The notes under the pieces are model-generated. The model ran no database searches. It was given only the letters and a program-made list of their open reading frames with translations, and was not told where the DNA came from. Positions 5,049 through 61,287 of a stretch of DNA of 64,000 nt are shown one piece after another. How positions within the stretch are numbered: position 1 is the first letter of the stretch; each line of letters starts with the position of its first letter. The stretch lies in contig JAOAEQ010000001.1 in assembly GCA_026416715.1 (NCBI GenBank), positions 124,001-188,000 of the forward strand, written 5' to 3'. A program made the translations under genes and the position numbers. This DNA comes from a bacterium (lineage in GTDB: Bacteria > UBP4 > UBA4092 > JAOAEQ01).

Positions 5049-5145
5049 GTTTCATAAAGATTTTATTGAAGTCTAGCATCCTGCCATTACGGTAGTTGCT
5101 TATCGGCTATCCCCCTTTCTATAGCAACTAAAGAAAGCTGTACCT

Positions 5146-5190
5146 TCGAAGCAAGGATGAACGAGCTCGAGCTCGTTCATCCTTGCTCGA
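5146..5190. repeat. 36-bp perfect palindrome (extended to 45 bp with one bulge)
   Basis: Bases 5151-5168 are exactly complementary to 5169-5186, with no loop bases. The stem extends by TCGA on both sides (5146-5149 and 5187-5190) if A5150 is bulged. The centre reads GAGCTCGAGCTC. No T-run follows. It may form a cruciform or an mRNA hairpin upstream of the YfhO-like gene. Confidence 0.8.
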
Positions 5191-5253
5191 GATAAAATCG
5201 GATTAAATCATCTAGACAAAACATCGCCTGATACCGTATGCTTTTATAAGCAT

Positions 5254-15095: not shown

Positions 15096-15125
15096 TTGAC
15101 AAATTCATTTCTAACTTTATATAAT
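15096..15125 (+). promoter_or_regulatory. Consensus sigma-70 promoter for the deoxynucleoside kinase gene
   Basis: TTGACA at 15096-15101 and TATAAT at 15120-15125 are both exact consensus hexamers with an 18-base spacer. The ATG of the kinase gene follows 37 bases after the -10, leaving a short leader with a GAGGGA Shine-Dalgarno sequence. Confidence 0.8.
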
Positions 15126-16260: not shown

Positions 16261-18228
16261 TTATCCGATAGCGCGAATCGGGAGGATAACCATATTTATC
16301 CCGTGGAAAAGTAGTTGGCGTTGAATTGCGAACGCTGCTTGGTTATGGAGTTGGCGGGTAGCCCAGTTTTCTTTCGGGAAAATAAGCTGACCAGCGAAAC
16401 AGACCGAATTCGGAAACTCTTTCGTCGCTTCACGGCAGAGGATTTCTAGTTCATCAATTGCATCGGTGCCGATTGAATAGCGGTATTCGGCATAGAATCC
16501 GAGTTTATTCGCTATTTCAACATATTTTTTAAGAGCAGATTCGGTAGCTTCCCGGAGTCGGTCGAGTTCTTCTACTCCTTTAAACTTGCTGGTATCAACT
16601 TCGCCAACGGAAACGAAAACGAATTGGGTAAACTGCTTTCGAAACGATTTGATTATCGCGAGCATAGAATGGATACCTAACCCGTTAAATTGGTTGACCA
16701 TCAAGATTGCCGTCGGAGCTTTTGGATCCTTCGGCGGAAGTTTCGGCGGGTGTTCCGGTAGCGGAAGGTCGGTGAGAATCGCATCCAGCCGTTTGAATAC
16801 CTTTCGAACCGCAGTATAATGCGATTTTATCCATAAACAGAAGAGAATGAATGAAACTGTGATAACCAACGTCACCCAACCGCCAACTTCAAATTTCAGG
16901 ATAACCGTTGCGCAAAGAATCCCAGTCGTTATCACCAACCCGATGCCATTAATCAGCAGCCGTTTAATCCATTTCGATTCAGTCCGCCGTTTTTTCCACC
17001 AATGCACACACATCCCGAGTTGCGATAAGGTAAAGGTTAGAAAAACATTGATACTATATAATACTACGAGAACGCTGACATTCCCTTTGGTATACCAAAC
17101 CGTCAATAATGCCGCTAACCCCATCAGGATGATTCCGTTCCGCGTAACCAATCGGTCACTTAAATGCGCGAATCGCCGTGGGATCCAGCCGTCCTGCGCC
17201 ATATTCGCGAGCACTCGTGGTCCGGCTAAGAATCCGGTTTGCGCTGCAATAAATAGTAGTAAAGCTTCTGAGAGCAAGGTGAGAATAATAAATCCATATC
17301 CTATCGGAATCCCTTGAACAATCCATTGTCCAGCAACGGTTGAGATAAGCACCGCATTCATCGTTTTGCCCGGCTGCGGATGGATATTGTTCAATAAATA
17401 ACAAACAATAATCCCACCAGCAGTAAACGCGAGTGAAACTGCCATATACAGCATGGTTCGTTTAGCTGTTTTAACTTTCGGCTCTCGCAATATCTGAAGT
17501 CCATTACTTACCGCTTCAATCCCGGTATACGTTCCGCCACCGAGACTATACGCCCGCATGAGGATAACTAGAACAGCGAAAAATCCGAGGTTCTGAATCC
17601 CATATTGCGTTTCGCGCACGGTTTCAGCAACCATCGCCGGTAATGCGCTCGTATGTCCGAAAATACCGACCAGAATGACTAACGTATGCGTGATAACGAA
17701 GGTTAGAAATACCGGCGCAAGAACTAATACTGATTCTTTAACCCCACGTAGATTAAGTATGGTTAGAAATCCGATTACCAGAAATGCCGTAACCAGTTTA
17801 TGCTCTAAAAAGAACGGCGGCATAAAACTTAATACTGCATCCATACCGCTGGAAACAGAAATCGCAATCGTTAAAACATAATCTACGACAAGCGCACAGC
17901 CGGAAACGAGCCCGGCATATTGCCCGAGGAGTTTTGAAGCAACCAGATATCCGCCACCGCCAGTTGGAAATAGTTCGATTATCTGCGAATAACTAGCAGA
18001 AATTATAAACACGGTTGCTGCAGTCGCTAACGCTAGATATATCCCGAGATGACTATACATTCCGAGCGCACGATATGCTTCTTCCGGACCGTAGCAGGAT
18101 GAGGATAACCCATCTACACCAAGTCCTATCCAGGCAAGAAATGCAATTAATGAAATTTGGTGGAATACATGCGGGTCTTCAAGGTTTTTCGCTCTGCCGA
18201 TAATCAAATTTTTTATTTTTTTTAGCAT
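16261..18228 (-). CDS. kimA: KimA-like APC-superfamily permease under a c-di-AMP riboswitch
   Basis: A 655-residue transporter. The N-terminal 450 residues hold about 12 hydrophobic helices, with helix 1 motifs IGLGVDGLSSSCYGPEEAY and the TGGGGYLVASKLLG segment typical of the KimA (YdaO)/APC group. A soluble tail of about 180 residues follows, as in KimA, a potassium importer shut off by c-di-AMP. The leader on the same strand carries a ydaO-type riboswitch (18380-18512), which strongly supports a potassium or osmolyte transport role. The ATG at 18228 is the natural start. Amino-acid permease is the less likely alternative. Confidence 0.82.
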   Translation of the reverse strand: MLKKIKNLIIGRAKNLEDPHVFHQISLIAFLAWIGLGVDGLSSSCYGPEEAYRALGMYSHLGIYLALATAATVFIISASYSQIIELFPTGGGGYLVASKLLGQYAGLVSGCALVVDYVLTIAISVSSGMDAVLSFMPPFFLEHKLVTAFLVIGFLTILNLRGVKESVLVLAPVFLTFVITHTLVILVGIFGHTSALPAMVAETVRETQYGIQNLGFFAVLVILMRAYSLGGGTYTGIEAVSNGLQILREPKVKTAKRTMLYMAVSLAFTAGGIIVCYLLNNIHPQPGKTMNAVLISTVAGQWIVQGIPIGYGFIILTLLSEALLLFIAAQTGFLAGPRVLANMAQDGWIPRRFAHLSDRLVTRNGIILMGLAALLTVWYTKGNVSVLVVLYSINVFLTFTLSQLGMCVHWWKKRRTESKWIKRLLINGIGLVITTGILCATVILKFEVGGWVTLVITVSFILFCLWIKSHYTAVRKVFKRLDAILTDLPLPEHPPKLPPKDPKAPTAILMVNQFNGLGIHSMLAIIKSFRKQFTQFVFVSVGEVDTSKFKGVEELDRLREATESALKKYVEIANKLGFYAEYRYSIGTDAIDELEILCREATKEFPNSVCFAGQLIFPKENWATRQLHNQAAFAIQRQLLFHGINMVILPIRAIG

Positions 18229-18379
18229 ACGCTATATAAATGAGATACACAAAATTAACACCGGTAACGTTTTATGCTCGCTCAATTCTGGTTATCTTTT
18301 ATAAAATTCGGGAAGTGTATAAGCAGGTATGTAATGTATCATTGTAATTGTGCATTGGTTTCAGTTAAGGCAGGTTTAC

Positions 18380-18512
18380 TCACCTTCCCACGCCTACGAG
18401 GTTAGCTGACGGGTTCGGGTCGAAAAGTAACCCTATGCTCAATGAGCAATTCACCCCTAAAACTTGGTTCCCCCGTCTCACATAAGTTCGGCGACTGTTA
18501 TCGTGTAGGTTT
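18380..18512 (-). promoter_or_regulatory. c-di-AMP riboswitch (ydaO/yuaA type)
   Basis: On the minus strand the leader contains, in order, GACGGGGGAACCAAG, a GGGGTGAATTG segment, a short hairpin around GCTCATTGAGC, ATAGGGTTAC, then GACCCGAACCCGTCAGC, TAACCTCGTAGGCG and a purine-rich GGGAAGG. These are the conserved blocks of the ydaO/yuaA motif, which binds c-di-AMP and turns off downstream genes. CCTAC near 18509 can pair with GTAGG near 18395 to close the element. About 150 bases separate it from the permease ATG. I could not identify a clear terminator in that stretch. Confidence 0.9.
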
Positions 18513-22391: not shown

Positions 22392-23531
22392 ATGCTCATT
22401 ACTCGCCAGCACGTTCAGGAATTATCTTCATTCTCTGGAAATAAATTTCCGGTAACCTCGTGTTATCTCAATACTACACACAAACAAACTCCGCAAAAAA
22501 CTTACATAACTACGGCAAAAGATTTAATCAAATCATCGTTAGCTACGCTCGATGAAAAAAATTTATCTGCTGAACAGCGAAAATCCGTTGAGTCTGACTG
22601 CAAACGAATCTCGCGATATATAACGTCGGAGTTTACTCCAAATAAAACGCGGGGAGTAGCACTATTTTCATCTAGCGGAAATAATTTTTGGCAGGTATTC
22701 CAACTTCCATGTCCGTTCCCCAATGAATTGGTTATTGATGCAAAACCATACATTCAACCGATGGTACGTATGCTCGATGAATATGAACGATACTGTGTCG
22801 TTTTGGTCAATAAAGAAAAAGCGCGGATCTTTATTGTTTATCTCGGGCAAATAGAAGAATATACCTCCCTGTTTGATGAAGTCCCCAAAAAGGTTCGACG
22901 CCCAGGTTGGGCTTCCGGTGCAGCGTCACATGTGGAACGGCATATCCAGTATCATGTTCATTTGCATCTGAAACACACCGCTGATGTTCTCTGGTCATAT
23001 TATAAAAAGGAACCGTTCGACCGTCTCATTATCGGTGGAACGAAAGAAATTCTATCGGATTTCGAACGGGCGCTGCATAGTTATCTCCAACAACGGATTG
23101 CCGGAAGATTGAATTTAGAACTTACCGCATCGATTGAACAGGTACTCGAACAATCGCTAGCGGTGGAACAGAAAATTGAACGCGCTGCGGAAGCGAAACT
23201 AGTTGCTAAATTACTTGAAGGACAACAGACCAATCAGTTTACGGTTACCGGAATTTCGGATACGCTGTTAGCGTTACAGGAAGATAAAGTCCATACCTTA
23301 ATTATCGCTGACGGATTCAAAAAATCGGGGTATAAATGTTTGCATTGCGGATATTTTAATATTGATAATGGAAATTGCCCGTTCTGTTCAGAAAAAATGC
23401 AACCGATTACGGATGTGGTCGAAGAAGCGGTTAAACTTGCAATAAAACAGAACTGCGAAATTGAATATGTTGTCGGGCATCCAATTATGCCAGAACTCGG
23501 AAACATCGGCGCTTTACTCCGATTTCAATGA
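22392..23531 (+). CDS. baeRF-family (bacterial eRF1-like) protein with zinc ribbon
   Basis: A 379-residue protein resembling the bacterial archaeo-eukaryotic release factor families (baeRF, probably the family-10 type). The central part has VLVNKEKARIFIVYLGQIEEY, an arch of basic residues (PKKVRRPGWASG), and HVERHIQYHVHLHLKHTADVLW. A C-terminal C-x2-C...C-x2-C zinc ribbon (CLHC, CPFC) and an L7Ae-like ending (IEYVVGHPIMPELGNIGALLRF) follow. Relatives of eRF1/Vms1 are proposed to act on ribosomes or peptidyl-tRNA. It ends the dnaJ-degP cluster, which suggests a quality-control role. The exact subfamily is my inference. Confidence 0.75.
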   Translation: MLITRQHVQELSSFSGNKFPVTSCYLNTTHKQTPQKTYITTAKDLIKSSLATLDEKNLSAEQRKSVESDCKRISRYITSEFTPNKTRGVALFSSSGNNFWQVFQLPCPFPNELVIDAKPYIQPMVRMLDEYERYCVVLVNKEKARIFIVYLGQIEEYTSLFDEVPKKVRRPGWASGAASHVERHIQYHVHLHLKHTADVLWSYYKKEPFDRLIIGGTKEILSDFERALHSYLQQRIAGRLNLELTASIEQVLEQSLAVEQKIERAAEAKLVAKLLEGQQTNQFTVTGISDTLLALQEDKVHTLIIADGFKKSGYKCLHCGYFNIDNGNCPFCSEKMQPITDVVEEAVKLAIKQNCEIEYVVGHPIMPELGNIGALLRFQ

Positions 23532-23657
23532 TCATAATCTTAGTTCAGGATACGACTATATGCGATAACTCAAGAAATTAGTCTTGGCTATTGCATGACG
23601 ACAGATACAACATCAATGTAACAGTGGTTGTCGGTTCAATCTTTTTCTTCAAAAAAC

Positions 23658-23686
23658 TTGTCAATTTATATTAAGTGCGCTATACT
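23658..23686 (+). promoter_or_regulatory. Strong sigma-70 promoter for a structured RNA
   Basis: TTGTCA at 23658-23663 and TATACT at 23681-23686 are separated by exactly 17 bases. The predicted start is around 23693. No coding frame follows; instead a structured RNA ends in an intrinsic terminator. Confidence 0.75.
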
Positions 23687-23692
23687 AAATGA

Positions 23693-23898
23693 AACGATTT
23701 AGGGATGTGAGGGGAGCATTGATAAGCAGACCTATATTAAAAATACGAAATCCTTGAGATTGGAACTCGAGGTGATGCAGAATCATGCCTCCCTAAACAA
23801 AGAAACAGGTTCATACAACCAATTCAACTAACCCGCTTTTTCTTCCGGTAGAAAATTTATGCTACCGAAAAAATGAAAAGGCGGGTTTTTGTTTTTTA
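23693..23898 (+). ncRNA. Candidate small structured RNA of about 205 nt (6S-like rod)
   Basis: From the promoter start to the terminator there is no plausible reading frame. TTTAGGGA (23698-23705) pairs with TCCCTAAA (23790-23797). Inside, GCAT/ATGC and GAT/ATC (23716-23723 with 23782-23788) continue the rod across an asymmetric bubble of ten unpaired bases on the 5' side. CCTTGAG/CTCGAGG (23752-23758, 23766-23772) caps it. A single-stranded tail and a terminator follow. Size, rod shape and bubble recall 6S RNA, but I see no diagnostic sequence, and SRP and tmRNA signatures are absent. Confidence 0.6.
23829..23898 (+). terminator. Intrinsic terminator of the candidate ncRNA
   Basis: ACCCGC at 23831-23836 pairs with GCGGGT at 23881-23886. 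An inner stem CGGTAG/CTACCG lies at 23846-23851 and 23862-23867, and the polypyrimidine and polypurine flanks between them can extend pairing. A run of T (TTTTTGTTTTTT) follows at once, which is a classic rho-independent terminator. Confidence 0.88.
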
Positions 23899-24024
23899 TG
23901 GTTTTGTAGGAGGTAAGGAGGTGTAACGGCAAGGACGAATTCCCCAATACTGAGTGCTGAGTTTTACCTAAAACCTTTAAATAGATTGAGCATGTAAAAC
24001 TTAGGACTTCAGACAGCCGAAACT

Positions 24025-24273
24025 ATGAACCCACGTGATATAAGCATTTTCCGTGATGTTGAACGTAAGCTGGATAAAGAAGGGGTGGATTTAGCACATA
24101 TCGATGTTCTGGTACATCGCGGTGAAGTAACTTTAACTGGGCATTTCATGGACCGCATATCACATCGAGATTTAACGGATTTAGAAATTAACCGAATTAA
24201 ACAAATTCTGTTGCATATCCCCGGCGTTTCAGAAGTAATCATCCATCAAGCGAAAGCCAGCGCGTTTGTCTAA
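24025..24273 (+). CDS. Small BON-domain protein
   Basis: An 82-residue protein that is almost entirely one BON-like domain. It shows a conserved Gly in VLVHRGEVTLTGHF, then RISHRDLTDLEINRIKQILLHIPGVSEVI, the two-strand, helix, strand pattern of the family. BON domains usually bind phospholipid or partner proteins in the periplasm (OsmY), but this one has no signal peptide, so it is probably cytoplasmic. It is preceded by the ncRNA terminator and has no clear Shine-Dalgarno sequence. Confidence 0.72.
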   Translation: MNPRDISIFRDVERKLDKEGVDLAHIDVLVHRGEVTLTGHFMDRISHRDLTDLEINRIKQILLHIPGVSEVIIHQAKASAFV

Positions 24274-24414
24274 TCATCATTCTATATTTTATAATTATTA
24301 TTGATATTATTAATTATGCAGCTGACTTGAATCCGAACTCTATCGGAATTCAGATAGTATCATCTATTGTTCGGTCATATTTAAGTCAGCTGATTATTTA
24401 ACTGGAGGGTTTCA

Positions 24415-24936
24415 ATGGATTTCTATGAAGCGCTAAAAGTTCGAAAAAGTGTCCGAAAATATTTAGATAAACCTGTTGAACCATCGAAACTTAACCGGAT
24501 TCTTGAAGCAGCACGAATCGCACCGTCTGGATGCAATGCGCAACCCTGGAAATTTATTCTGGTGACCGACCCGGAATTGAAACAGAAATTAGTTGCCGCA
24601 TGTCGAAATCAAAAGTTTATCGCTGAAGCGAATCTGGTTATTATCGCCTGCGGTAATCCTGAACTTGCCTATCCTCGGCAGGGCGGATATATGAACGCAT
24701 TTCCGATAGATGTAGCGATTGCGGTCGAACATCTCTGTCTCGCTGCCGCTGTTGAAGGACTTGGCACCTGTTGGATTGGTGCATTTGATGAACAAGAAGT
24801 GAAAAAAATCTTGCGGATCCCCGACCCATGGCGAGTCGTAGCGTTAACTCCGCTCGGCTATCCTGCGGAAACACCGCCTGACCGGGGCAGAAAACCGCTG
24901 GGCGAAATAACATGTCAAAATAAATGGAAGGAGTAA
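24415..24936 (+). CDS. Nitroreductase-family FMN oxidoreductase
   Basis: A 173-residue nitroreductase with the FMN-binding RKSVRKYLDKPVE at the N-terminus, the IAPSGCNAQPWKFILV substrate/FMN loop and the GLGTCWIGAFDE motif. Such short anaerobe-type nitroreductases reduce nitro or quinone compounds, or serve as flavin-linked electron sinks. A good GGAGGG Shine-Dalgarno site precedes the ATG. The secreted repeat protein follows after 7 bases, so the two are probably cotranscribed although no functional link is evident. Confidence 0.88.
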   Translation: MDFYEALKVRKSVRKYLDKPVEPSKLNRILEAARIAPSGCNAQPWKFILVTDPELKQKLVAACRNQKFIAEANLVIIACGNPELAYPRQGGYMNAFPIDVAIAVEHLCLAAAVEGLGTCWIGAFDEQEVKKILRIPDPWRVVALTPLGYPAETPPDRGRKPLGEITCQNKWKE

Positions 24937-29513: not shown

Positions 29514-29747
29514 ATGGACGCGAAAAAAATCATCTGGACAATTGTATTAATCGTGATAATTATCGTAGCTGGGTATTTCTTCTGGAAACAGATGCAACCG
29601 TATTTAAGTCGAGGTGGGACCCCAGCCGCTGGTCCAGAAATCCCGCCGGGCGCGCCGCCGGAAGGTGCACAACCGCCAGCACCACCAGCTGAAGGTGCAC
29701 CAGCACCAGCACCAGCACCGGCACCGGCTCCTGAAGCTGGTAAATAG
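29514..29747 (+). CDS. Small single-pass membrane protein with Pro/Ala-rich tail
   Basis: A 77-residue protein: a short basic N-terminus, one hydrophobic helix (residues 6-24, IIWTIVLIVIIIVAGYFFW), then a low-complexity tail rich in Pro, Ala, Gly and Glu ending in an (AP) repeat. It has its own promoter and Shine-Dalgarno sequence, which argues for a real gene. Topology predicts N-in with the tail on the periplasmic side, where it could span the cell wall or act as a spacer. No family recognised. Confidence 0.68.
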   Translation: MDAKKIIWTIVLIVIIIVAGYFFWKQMQPYLSRGGTPAAGPEIPPGAPPEGAQPPAPPAEGAPAPAPAPAPAPEAGK

Positions 29748-29873
29748 TGTCGGTTAGAGTTTAACACAAATTTAGAATTACATATTTAACTAAAGAAGCT
29801 AACCTTGATGCATTCAACCGTTGCGGAGTTCAGAGAACAACCTGGACTCCGCAATGGAATATATACTTTGTTT

Positions 29874-30291: not shown

Positions 30292-31176
30292 ATGCATACC
30301 ATTATTCGTAAAGAAAATTTAGCTCCGAAAATCGTTCTATTTGAAGTTTCCGCACCGTTAGTTGCAGCAAAAGCGAAACCTGGTCATTTTGTTATTGTTC
30401 GTGCCTATGAATGGAGTGAACGGATTCCGTTAACTATTGCTGACCATAATGCTGAGACCGGAACCATTACACTCATTATCCAAGAAATTGGACAGGGAAC
30501 CAGAGAAATCTGCGCGATGGAGGTCGGGAGTGCGTTTCTTGATATAGTCGGTCCGCTAGGCAATCCGGCGGAAATTAAACGTGTCGGGACGATGGTTTTT
30601 ATTGGTGGCGGAGTGGGGGTTCCTGCAATATATCCAGAAGTAAAAGAAGCAAAACGGCTCGGAAATAAAGTTATCACTATCCTTGGCGCGCAGACTAAAG
30701 AATTGTTGATTTTAGCAAAAGAACTTGAAGCGGTCAGCGACCAGGTATTATATAGCACCAATGACGGTTCGTTTGGGATACACGGGTTCGTAACAGATGT
30801 ATTGAAGCAATTGCTTGATACTAAAATCGCAATCAACGAAATTATTGCTATCGGACCACTGCCGATGATGAAAGCGGTTAGTGAACTGACAAAACCCTAT
30901 GGGATTAAGACTATCGTTAGTTTGAACGCGATTATGGTAGATGGAACCGGGATGTGTGGCGGATGTCGTGTAACGGTTGGCGGAAAAAATAAATTTTCCT
31001 GTGTTGACGGACCGGAATTTGATGGGCATCAGGTAGATTTTGATGAGTTACTTCGTCGAACGAAACAATATTTGCATTACGAAAAAATTGCTGTTGAACA
31101 TGCGCAAAAAATCGGTCAGGGAAATTGCAGACTTGCTCCGCTTCTCCAATCCGTTCAAAAAGAATCATCATCGTAA
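30292..31176 (+). CDS. nfnA: NADH-dependent ferredoxin:NADP oxidoreductase, small subunit (NfnA-like)
   Basis: A 294-residue protein with ferredoxin-NADP-reductase fold. RIPLTIAD is the FAD site, GGGVGVPAIYPEVK the nucleotide loop, and a C-terminal [2Fe-2S] ligand set is visible in GTGMCGGCRVTV...FSCVDGPEFDG. With the next gene it forms NfnAB, which bifurcates electrons between NAD(H), NADP(H) and ferredoxin in anaerobes. Older names are sulfide dehydrogenase SudB and GltB-associated FAD subunit. Unusually for cotranscribed partners, the 87-base gap to nfnB holds a strong hairpin. Confidence 0.86.
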   Translation: MHTIIRKENLAPKIVLFEVSAPLVAAKAKPGHFVIVRAYEWSERIPLTIADHNAETGTITLIIQEIGQGTREICAMEVGSAFLDIVGPLGNPAEIKRVGTMVFIGGGVGVPAIYPEVKEAKRLGNKVITILGAQTKELLILAKELEAVSDQVLYSTNDGSFGIHGFVTDVLKQLLDTKIAINEIIAIGPLPMMKAVSELTKPYGIKTIVSLNAIMVDGTGMCGGCRVTVGGKNKFSCVDGPEFDGHQVDFDELLRRTKQYLHYEKIAVEHAQKIGQGNCRLAPLLQSVQKESSS

Positions 31177-54553: not shown

Positions 54554-54984
54554 AGTATCCTCCGAAATTAAATAAACGCAAATTTTGTTATCTGAAATAT
54601 TCTTCTGGTATCTCAATCTCAATCGCAATCAAACTCAGGTCTATCCACTTTCTAGAACCGACTCGTCCCTTATCCGCAGATATAGGAAACAAGATTTATT
54701 ATGAAAATCAGATTTTAGTCCAGAATCCGCTTTAGGTATAGTCAAAATTCGAAAGAGAGATAATGTTATATCCAAAAAATTGCGTATTGTTCTGATTACG
54801 GAGAGGAACAAGAACAAGAGCGGCTTTAACCCGCTCTTGTTCCTCTCCGTAGATTAAACAAATGGTAACGAAGACTATCAGCCTGTTAACCTAATATATT
54901 TCTGCTTAACAGACATTGATAACCTTGCTTAAAATTGCCCGGTTTACATCGCGGGTCAACAGAAGTGTGACTCCGCGTTAAACA
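54554..54984. other. Intergenic region with a long hairpin
   Basis: About 430 bases between wrbA and nrfA, both on the minus strand. The Shine-Dalgarno site and leader of nrfA occupy the right end near 54560. The left end holds the hairpin at 54798-54850. No gene is seen; a promoter for nrfHA is expected but I could not single one out. Confidence 0.4.
54798..54850. repeat. Long hairpin with tandem AACAAG in one arm
   Basis: The right arm CCGCTCTTGTTCCTCTCCGT (54831-54850) pairs with ACGGAGAGGAACAAG (54798-54812) and AGCGG (54819-54823). The left arm carries an extra AACAAG (54813-54818), a tandem copy of 54807-54812, that must bulge out. It lies about 130 bases downstream of the wrbA stop on that gene's strand, but has no T-run. 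Confidence 0.75.
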
Positions 54985-60923: not shown

Positions 60924-61000
60924 ACTGATTACACAGATTAAAAGAAATCGATTCCACCGCTCTAAAATCGGTGGTTTCATTCTCAATCTGTGTAATCAGT
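60924..61000. repeat. Nested hairpins between BMC-H and pduL (16-bp outer arms)
   Basis: ACTGATTACACAGATT (60924-60939) pairs perfectly with AATCTGTGTAATCAGT (60985-61000); CCACCG and CGGTGG inside form a second stem. The left arm's first two bases lie in the alternative GTG start codon of pduL. The element separates the shell gene (stop at 61009) from pduL, and in mRNA would form a strong double hairpin. Confidence 0.85.
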
Positions 61001-61008
61001 TTTTATGT

Positions 61009-61287
61009 TTACTTTCCGCTCGGTAGAATTTTATCCAGTTCCTGATGCGGTCGCGGGATAACATGCACGCTCACCAGTTCCCCGACGCGTTTCGCTGCCG
61101 CAGCTCCAGCATCAGTTGCGGCTTTCACCGCACCGACATCACCACGAACCATAACGGTTACATACCCGCCCCCGATTTTTTCTTTTCCAATCAGGGTAAC
61201 GTTCGCAGCTTTAACCATCGCATCTGCCGCTTCGATTGAAGCGACGTTTCCTTTCGTTTCAATAAGTCCTAACGCTTCACCGACCAT
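61009..61287 (-). CDS. Microcompartment shell hexamer protein (BMC-H)
   Basis: A 92-residue single BMC domain: [32 protein letters not shown], then the pore loop KIGGGYVTV, and [33 protein letters not shown]. It is the canonical PduA/CcmK-type hexamer size with a Gly-rich pore. It is preceded by a strong AGGAGGGG Shine-Dalgarno run, as expected for the most abundant shell component. Confidence 0.95.

Follow-up and report, generated by a model that had tools for sequence, protein, structure and literature searches.

A candidate small RNA gene between baeRF and BON-domain genes in a bacterium of the little-sampled phylum UBP4

Results

The window analysed here is the whole stretch of 64,000 nucleotides. 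Within it, 493 nt separate a baeRF family 10 gene (22392-23531, + strand; Pfam PF18854, E 1.9e-32) from a gene encoding a BON-domain protein (24025-24273, + strand; Pfam PF04972), and a putative RNA unit lies inside this gap on the same strand. The upstream genes form a cluster in the order dnaJ-htrA-dnaJ-baeRF, again in the orientation of the putative RNA. Relatives of baeRF in the named genomes came down to one Patescibacteria locus, without a common neighbourhood. Immediately past the terminator of the unit there is a strong Shine-Dalgarno-like stretch, GGAGGTAAGGAGGTG (23909-23923), with no start codon at normal spacing; no clear Shine-Dalgarno sequence precedes the BON gene, which begins 100 nt further downstream. 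The comparison set includes just one other genome of the phylum, G001, which belongs to the same class. In this genome and in G001, inspection by eye shows small proteins near BON that combine a single hydrophobic helix with a tail rich in Pro and Ala (29514-29747 and L034:252-512).

The unit begins with a sigma70-type promoter, TTGTCA-17-TATACT (23658-23686, + strand), in which a 17-base spacer separates TTGTCA (23658-23663) from TATACT (23681-23686) and 10 of the 12 hexamer positions agree with the consensus. Scored over both strands of the window with a weight matrix built on approximate E. coli frequencies, it ranks second in the 64 kb, and only the site at 15096 scores higher; by hexamer matches counted simply, the region is unremarkable (2 found, 1.8 expected). 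The near-consensus promoter with 17-base spacing, as described in the sequence-only reading, is thereby borne out, and as a predicted site it is too good for chance. Transcription from this promoter would be expected to start at about 23693.

About 140 nt past the expected start begins the hairpin of an intrinsic terminator (23830-23897, + strand). Its 13-nt arms, AACCCGCTTTTTC (23830-23842) and GAAAAGGCGGGTT (23875-23887), pair around an enclosed second hairpin, and a T-tract follows at 23886-23897. The hairpin has a predicted energy of -24.0 kcal/mol and stands second among the terminator-like sites of our own scan. A strong hairpin with a T-tract is thus present, as expected of the 'textbook' terminator reported earlier, but that label does not fit the inner hairpin or the tail TTTTTGTTTTTT, in which 11 of 12 residues are T and a G interrupts the run (5 T, G, 6 T); a strict scan limited to loops of 3-8 nt missed the site. 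When the growing transcript was folded, upstream sequence paired with the 5' arm of the terminator over only 3 nt, and no antiterminator pairing of more than 3 bp that could compete with the terminator was found, as expected for a constitutive terminator. We judge it beyond chance that a strong promoter and a strong terminator occur together on one strand, and a transcription unit at 23658-23897 is credible on sequence grounds.

The body of the putative RNA (23693-23802, + strand) has a rod-like minimum-energy fold of -27.1 kcal/mol, with helices 23711-23723/23782-23794 and 23726-23733/23770-23778. An A-rich bulge, AUAUUAAAAAUA (23734-23745, + strand), is one-sided in this fold, with 12 nt opposite none (12 x 0). 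The whole 206-nt RNA folds better than its shuffles (z -4.3 to -4.7), largely because of the terminator. For the body alone z is -2.1 to -2.9, a value equalled by 12% of intergenic 110-nt segments in the window, and its fold is only marginally beyond chance. Of the rod-like fold with an asymmetric bubble claimed before, the bubble stands as the 12 x 0 bulge, and the rod itself is weak. The closing stem proposed with it, in which UUUAGGGA (23698-23705) pairs with UCCCUAAA (23790-23797), does not occur in the minimum-energy fold: it competes with 23711-23716/23789-23794 for the same UCCC, and a fold constrained to contain it (23698-23797, + strand) reaches -24.5 vs -27.1 kcal/mol, making it an alternative that is 2.6 kcal/mol weaker. 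Between body and terminator lies an A-rich linker (23795-23829, + strand) that, from fold and sequence, is mostly unstructured and may offer a contact for Hfq.

The longest open frame in the unit has 42 codons and stops directly before the terminator; no ATG, GTG or TTG occurs near its beginning. At 0.009 bits per codon, the frame scores no better than wrong frames that are open (-0.007), compared with 0.296 +/- 0.150 for genes. The absence of coding capacity noted from the sequence is in agreement with these values.

Rfam gave no credible match to the locus at the gathering threshold, nor at E<=10 in a search of 23560-24020, where the weak matches listed fell far below the family cut-offs. 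Neither 6S RNA (RF00013) nor any riboswitch family matched at E<=10, and the covariance models for tmRNA, RNase P RNA and SRP RNA had no match at the locus. The genome carries its own copies elsewhere: a 6S RNA on another contig (RF00013, G000:C6:34057-34239; 90 bits, cut-off 46.4), a tmRNA (208.7 bits), an RNase P RNA (308.4 bits) and an SRP RNA (76 bits). The putative RNA is therefore not a displaced housekeeping RNA. The earlier exclusion of tmRNA, SRP and RNase P RNA holds; the suggestion of a divergent 6S RNA does not.

Relatives of the putative RNA were sought by DNA search in 60 genomes and with a covariance model of the body in 386 genomes, and neither search returned a credible one. 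The sole match outside this genome, in G143 (E 0.0014 for one genome), falls inside a protein-coding gene adjacent to a cysteine-desulfurase-like gene and is due to chance. Plasmids, phages and an exact-pattern search of viral contigs gave no match. The RNA is 'something new' in the weak sense that no relatives were detected. Within the genome, an intergenic stretch at G000:C18:54267-54301 (L008:1500-1537), CTTGAG...CGAGTTGATGCAGAATTATAC, resembles 23753-23788 with 80% identity over 34 nt (E 0.67). As a second copy it was rejected, since the 5' arm of its apical hairpin is not the same one, the promoter in front of it scores weakly (8.1) and it lacks a terminator downstream. The similarity may reflect chance or a shared short motif, and is a weak lead; those next-best matches to the shared motif that were checked in this genome lie in open frames.

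Discussion

The putative RNA is most likely either an ordinary orphan small RNA or the leader of BON, ended prematurely. We put it at about an even chance that the locus is a lineage-specific gene for a non-coding small RNA of about 200 nt. RNA polymerase would start near 23693 from the strong sigma70-type promoter and produce an RNA with a moderately stable hairpin body, the A-rich linker and the terminator hairpin, and transcription would stop in the T-tract at about 23890-23897, at an unregulated intrinsic terminator. Such an RNA would most likely act by base pairing with mRNAs in trans, possibly assisted by Hfq. This reading draws its support from the second-best promoter of the window, the strong terminator that lies some 200 nt further along the same strand, the lack of a coding signal and of competing pairing, and the presence of hfq in the genome (PF17209, 92.3 bits, G000:C21). 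Together with the A-rich linker, hfq makes Hfq-assisted pairing in trans plausible. Counting against the small RNA are the marginal fold of the body and the lack of conservation outside this genome.

At the level of sequence, the unit is like Hfq-associated trans-acting small RNAs such as SgrS and RyhB in having its own promoter, a length of about 200 nt, a structured body, an A-rich linker and an intrinsic terminator in a genome with hfq. It differs from them in its T-tract and in having no sequence relation to any Rfam small RNA. For terminators of small RNAs that bind Hfq, a run of at least seven T residues has been described (PMC5558911); the tract here, with T at 11 of 12 residues but broken by a G, may not conform to this, which counts against the small RNA reading as well. 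When duplexes with 13 translation starts of the window were predicted, baeRF reached p 0.02 and the gene at 30292 p 0.015, values that are not significant for 13 tests. If transcribed, the RNA would be a candidate regulatory RNA adjoining a protein quality-control cluster, in a phylum from which two genomes were compared. Orphan small RNAs are usually found in numbers by RNA-seq in any bacterium, and beyond its candidate regulatory role this one would add one more.

The main rival is that the RNA forms the 5' leader of BON. Most transcripts from 23693 would then stop at 23890-23897, and a regulated fraction would read on into BON at 24025, in the manner of a riboswitch or a protein-controlled attenuator. 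We consider this possible, though we lean against it. As in known attenuating leaders, a promoter and a structured RNA are followed by a terminator and then by a co-oriented gene that has no visible promoter: from the terminator to the start of BON, no promoter-like site scores above 4.2 (scan of 23880-24040), which favours a leader over a small RNA. The BON ortholog of G001 (40% identity) is preceded, at a distance of about 165 nt, by TTGACA-17-TATTTT, the strongest promoter of that locus. Over its first 113 nt the leader in between folds into a rod whose bulge is one-sided (z -3.1), though this segment was picked as the best out of three and the leader as a whole is unremarkable (z -0.3). 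In contrast to attenuating leaders, the putative RNA shows no antiterminator pairing in nascent transcripts and no match to a riboswitch family, and BON starts about 130 nt past the terminator. Nor is the G001 leader supported as a homolog of the putative RNA: with this one relative compared, the two RNAs resemble each other in sequence no more than shuffles do (p 0.95 over the first 125 nt, 0.23 overall), their folds are weakly alike (p 0.11), and no terminator was seen in the G001 leader. The comparison thus keeps a BON leader alive as a candidate explanation and does not establish it. The sequence-only reading had called the locus a complete RNA gene. Such a gene, equipped with a promoter and a terminator of its own, is still the best reading, but independence had not been separated there from a terminated BON leader.

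It is unlikely that the unit represents the 3' untranslated end of the dnaJ-htrA-dnaJ-baeRF cluster, with the terminator ending the operon and the promoter either idle or making a 3'-UTR-type small RNA. The orientation is the same, and the hairpin at 23830-23897 is the sole strong terminator between baeRF and BON in our terminator scan. Against an operon end, the promoter at 23658-23686 is too good for chance, and 23600-23650, already before that promoter, reads as a weaker hairpin with T-rich sequence behind it. Less probable still, and clearly speculative, is a new class of regulatory RNA in this little-sampled phylum, in which a rod-like RNA carrying an A-rich bulge on one side would precede BON genes, here and in strongly diverged form in G001, and would control them by termination or in trans.

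Two further explanations have very little in their favour. A coding reading, in which the RNA would be an mRNA translated from the ATT at 23718 into a small protein of about 37 residues, would fit the end of the frame directly before the terminator and the sequence GAGGGGAG that precedes this ATT, but is highly improbable, as the frame scores like wrong open frames in its codons, ATT seldom serves as a start codon and the product has no known relatives. Weakest of all, a divergent or second 6S RNA is hardly credible: the rod-like outline with an internal bulge recalls 6S RNA, but the model does not match even at E<=10, a clear 6S RNA exists elsewhere in the genome, the body is shorter (about 110 nt vs a model of 187 positions), and where 6S RNA has a two-sided bubble at its centre, flanked by long closing and terminal stems, the putative RNA has a 12 x 0 bulge, so that a second 6S RNA invisible to the model is unlikely.

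Other structured elements were seen in the window. Downstream of BON, the leader of a nitroreductase gene (24415-24936) contains a long, very stable hairpin (24308-24404) with a 14-bp base (z -5.8), which none of the shuffles equalled; it has no Rfam match and no T-tract, and a promoter-like site at 24266 (score 11.96) precedes it. Structurally, this hairpin is more remarkable than the putative RNA at 23693-23897. A c-di-AMP riboswitch (RF00379, 104.9 bits) lies at 18376-18503 on the - strand, ahead of a gene (16261-18228) whose product looks like an amino acid or potassium transporter. Very stable intergenic folds also occur at 5100-5250, 29748-29873, 54749-54900 and 60926-61040, with z from -5 to -6.8 (60 shuffles).
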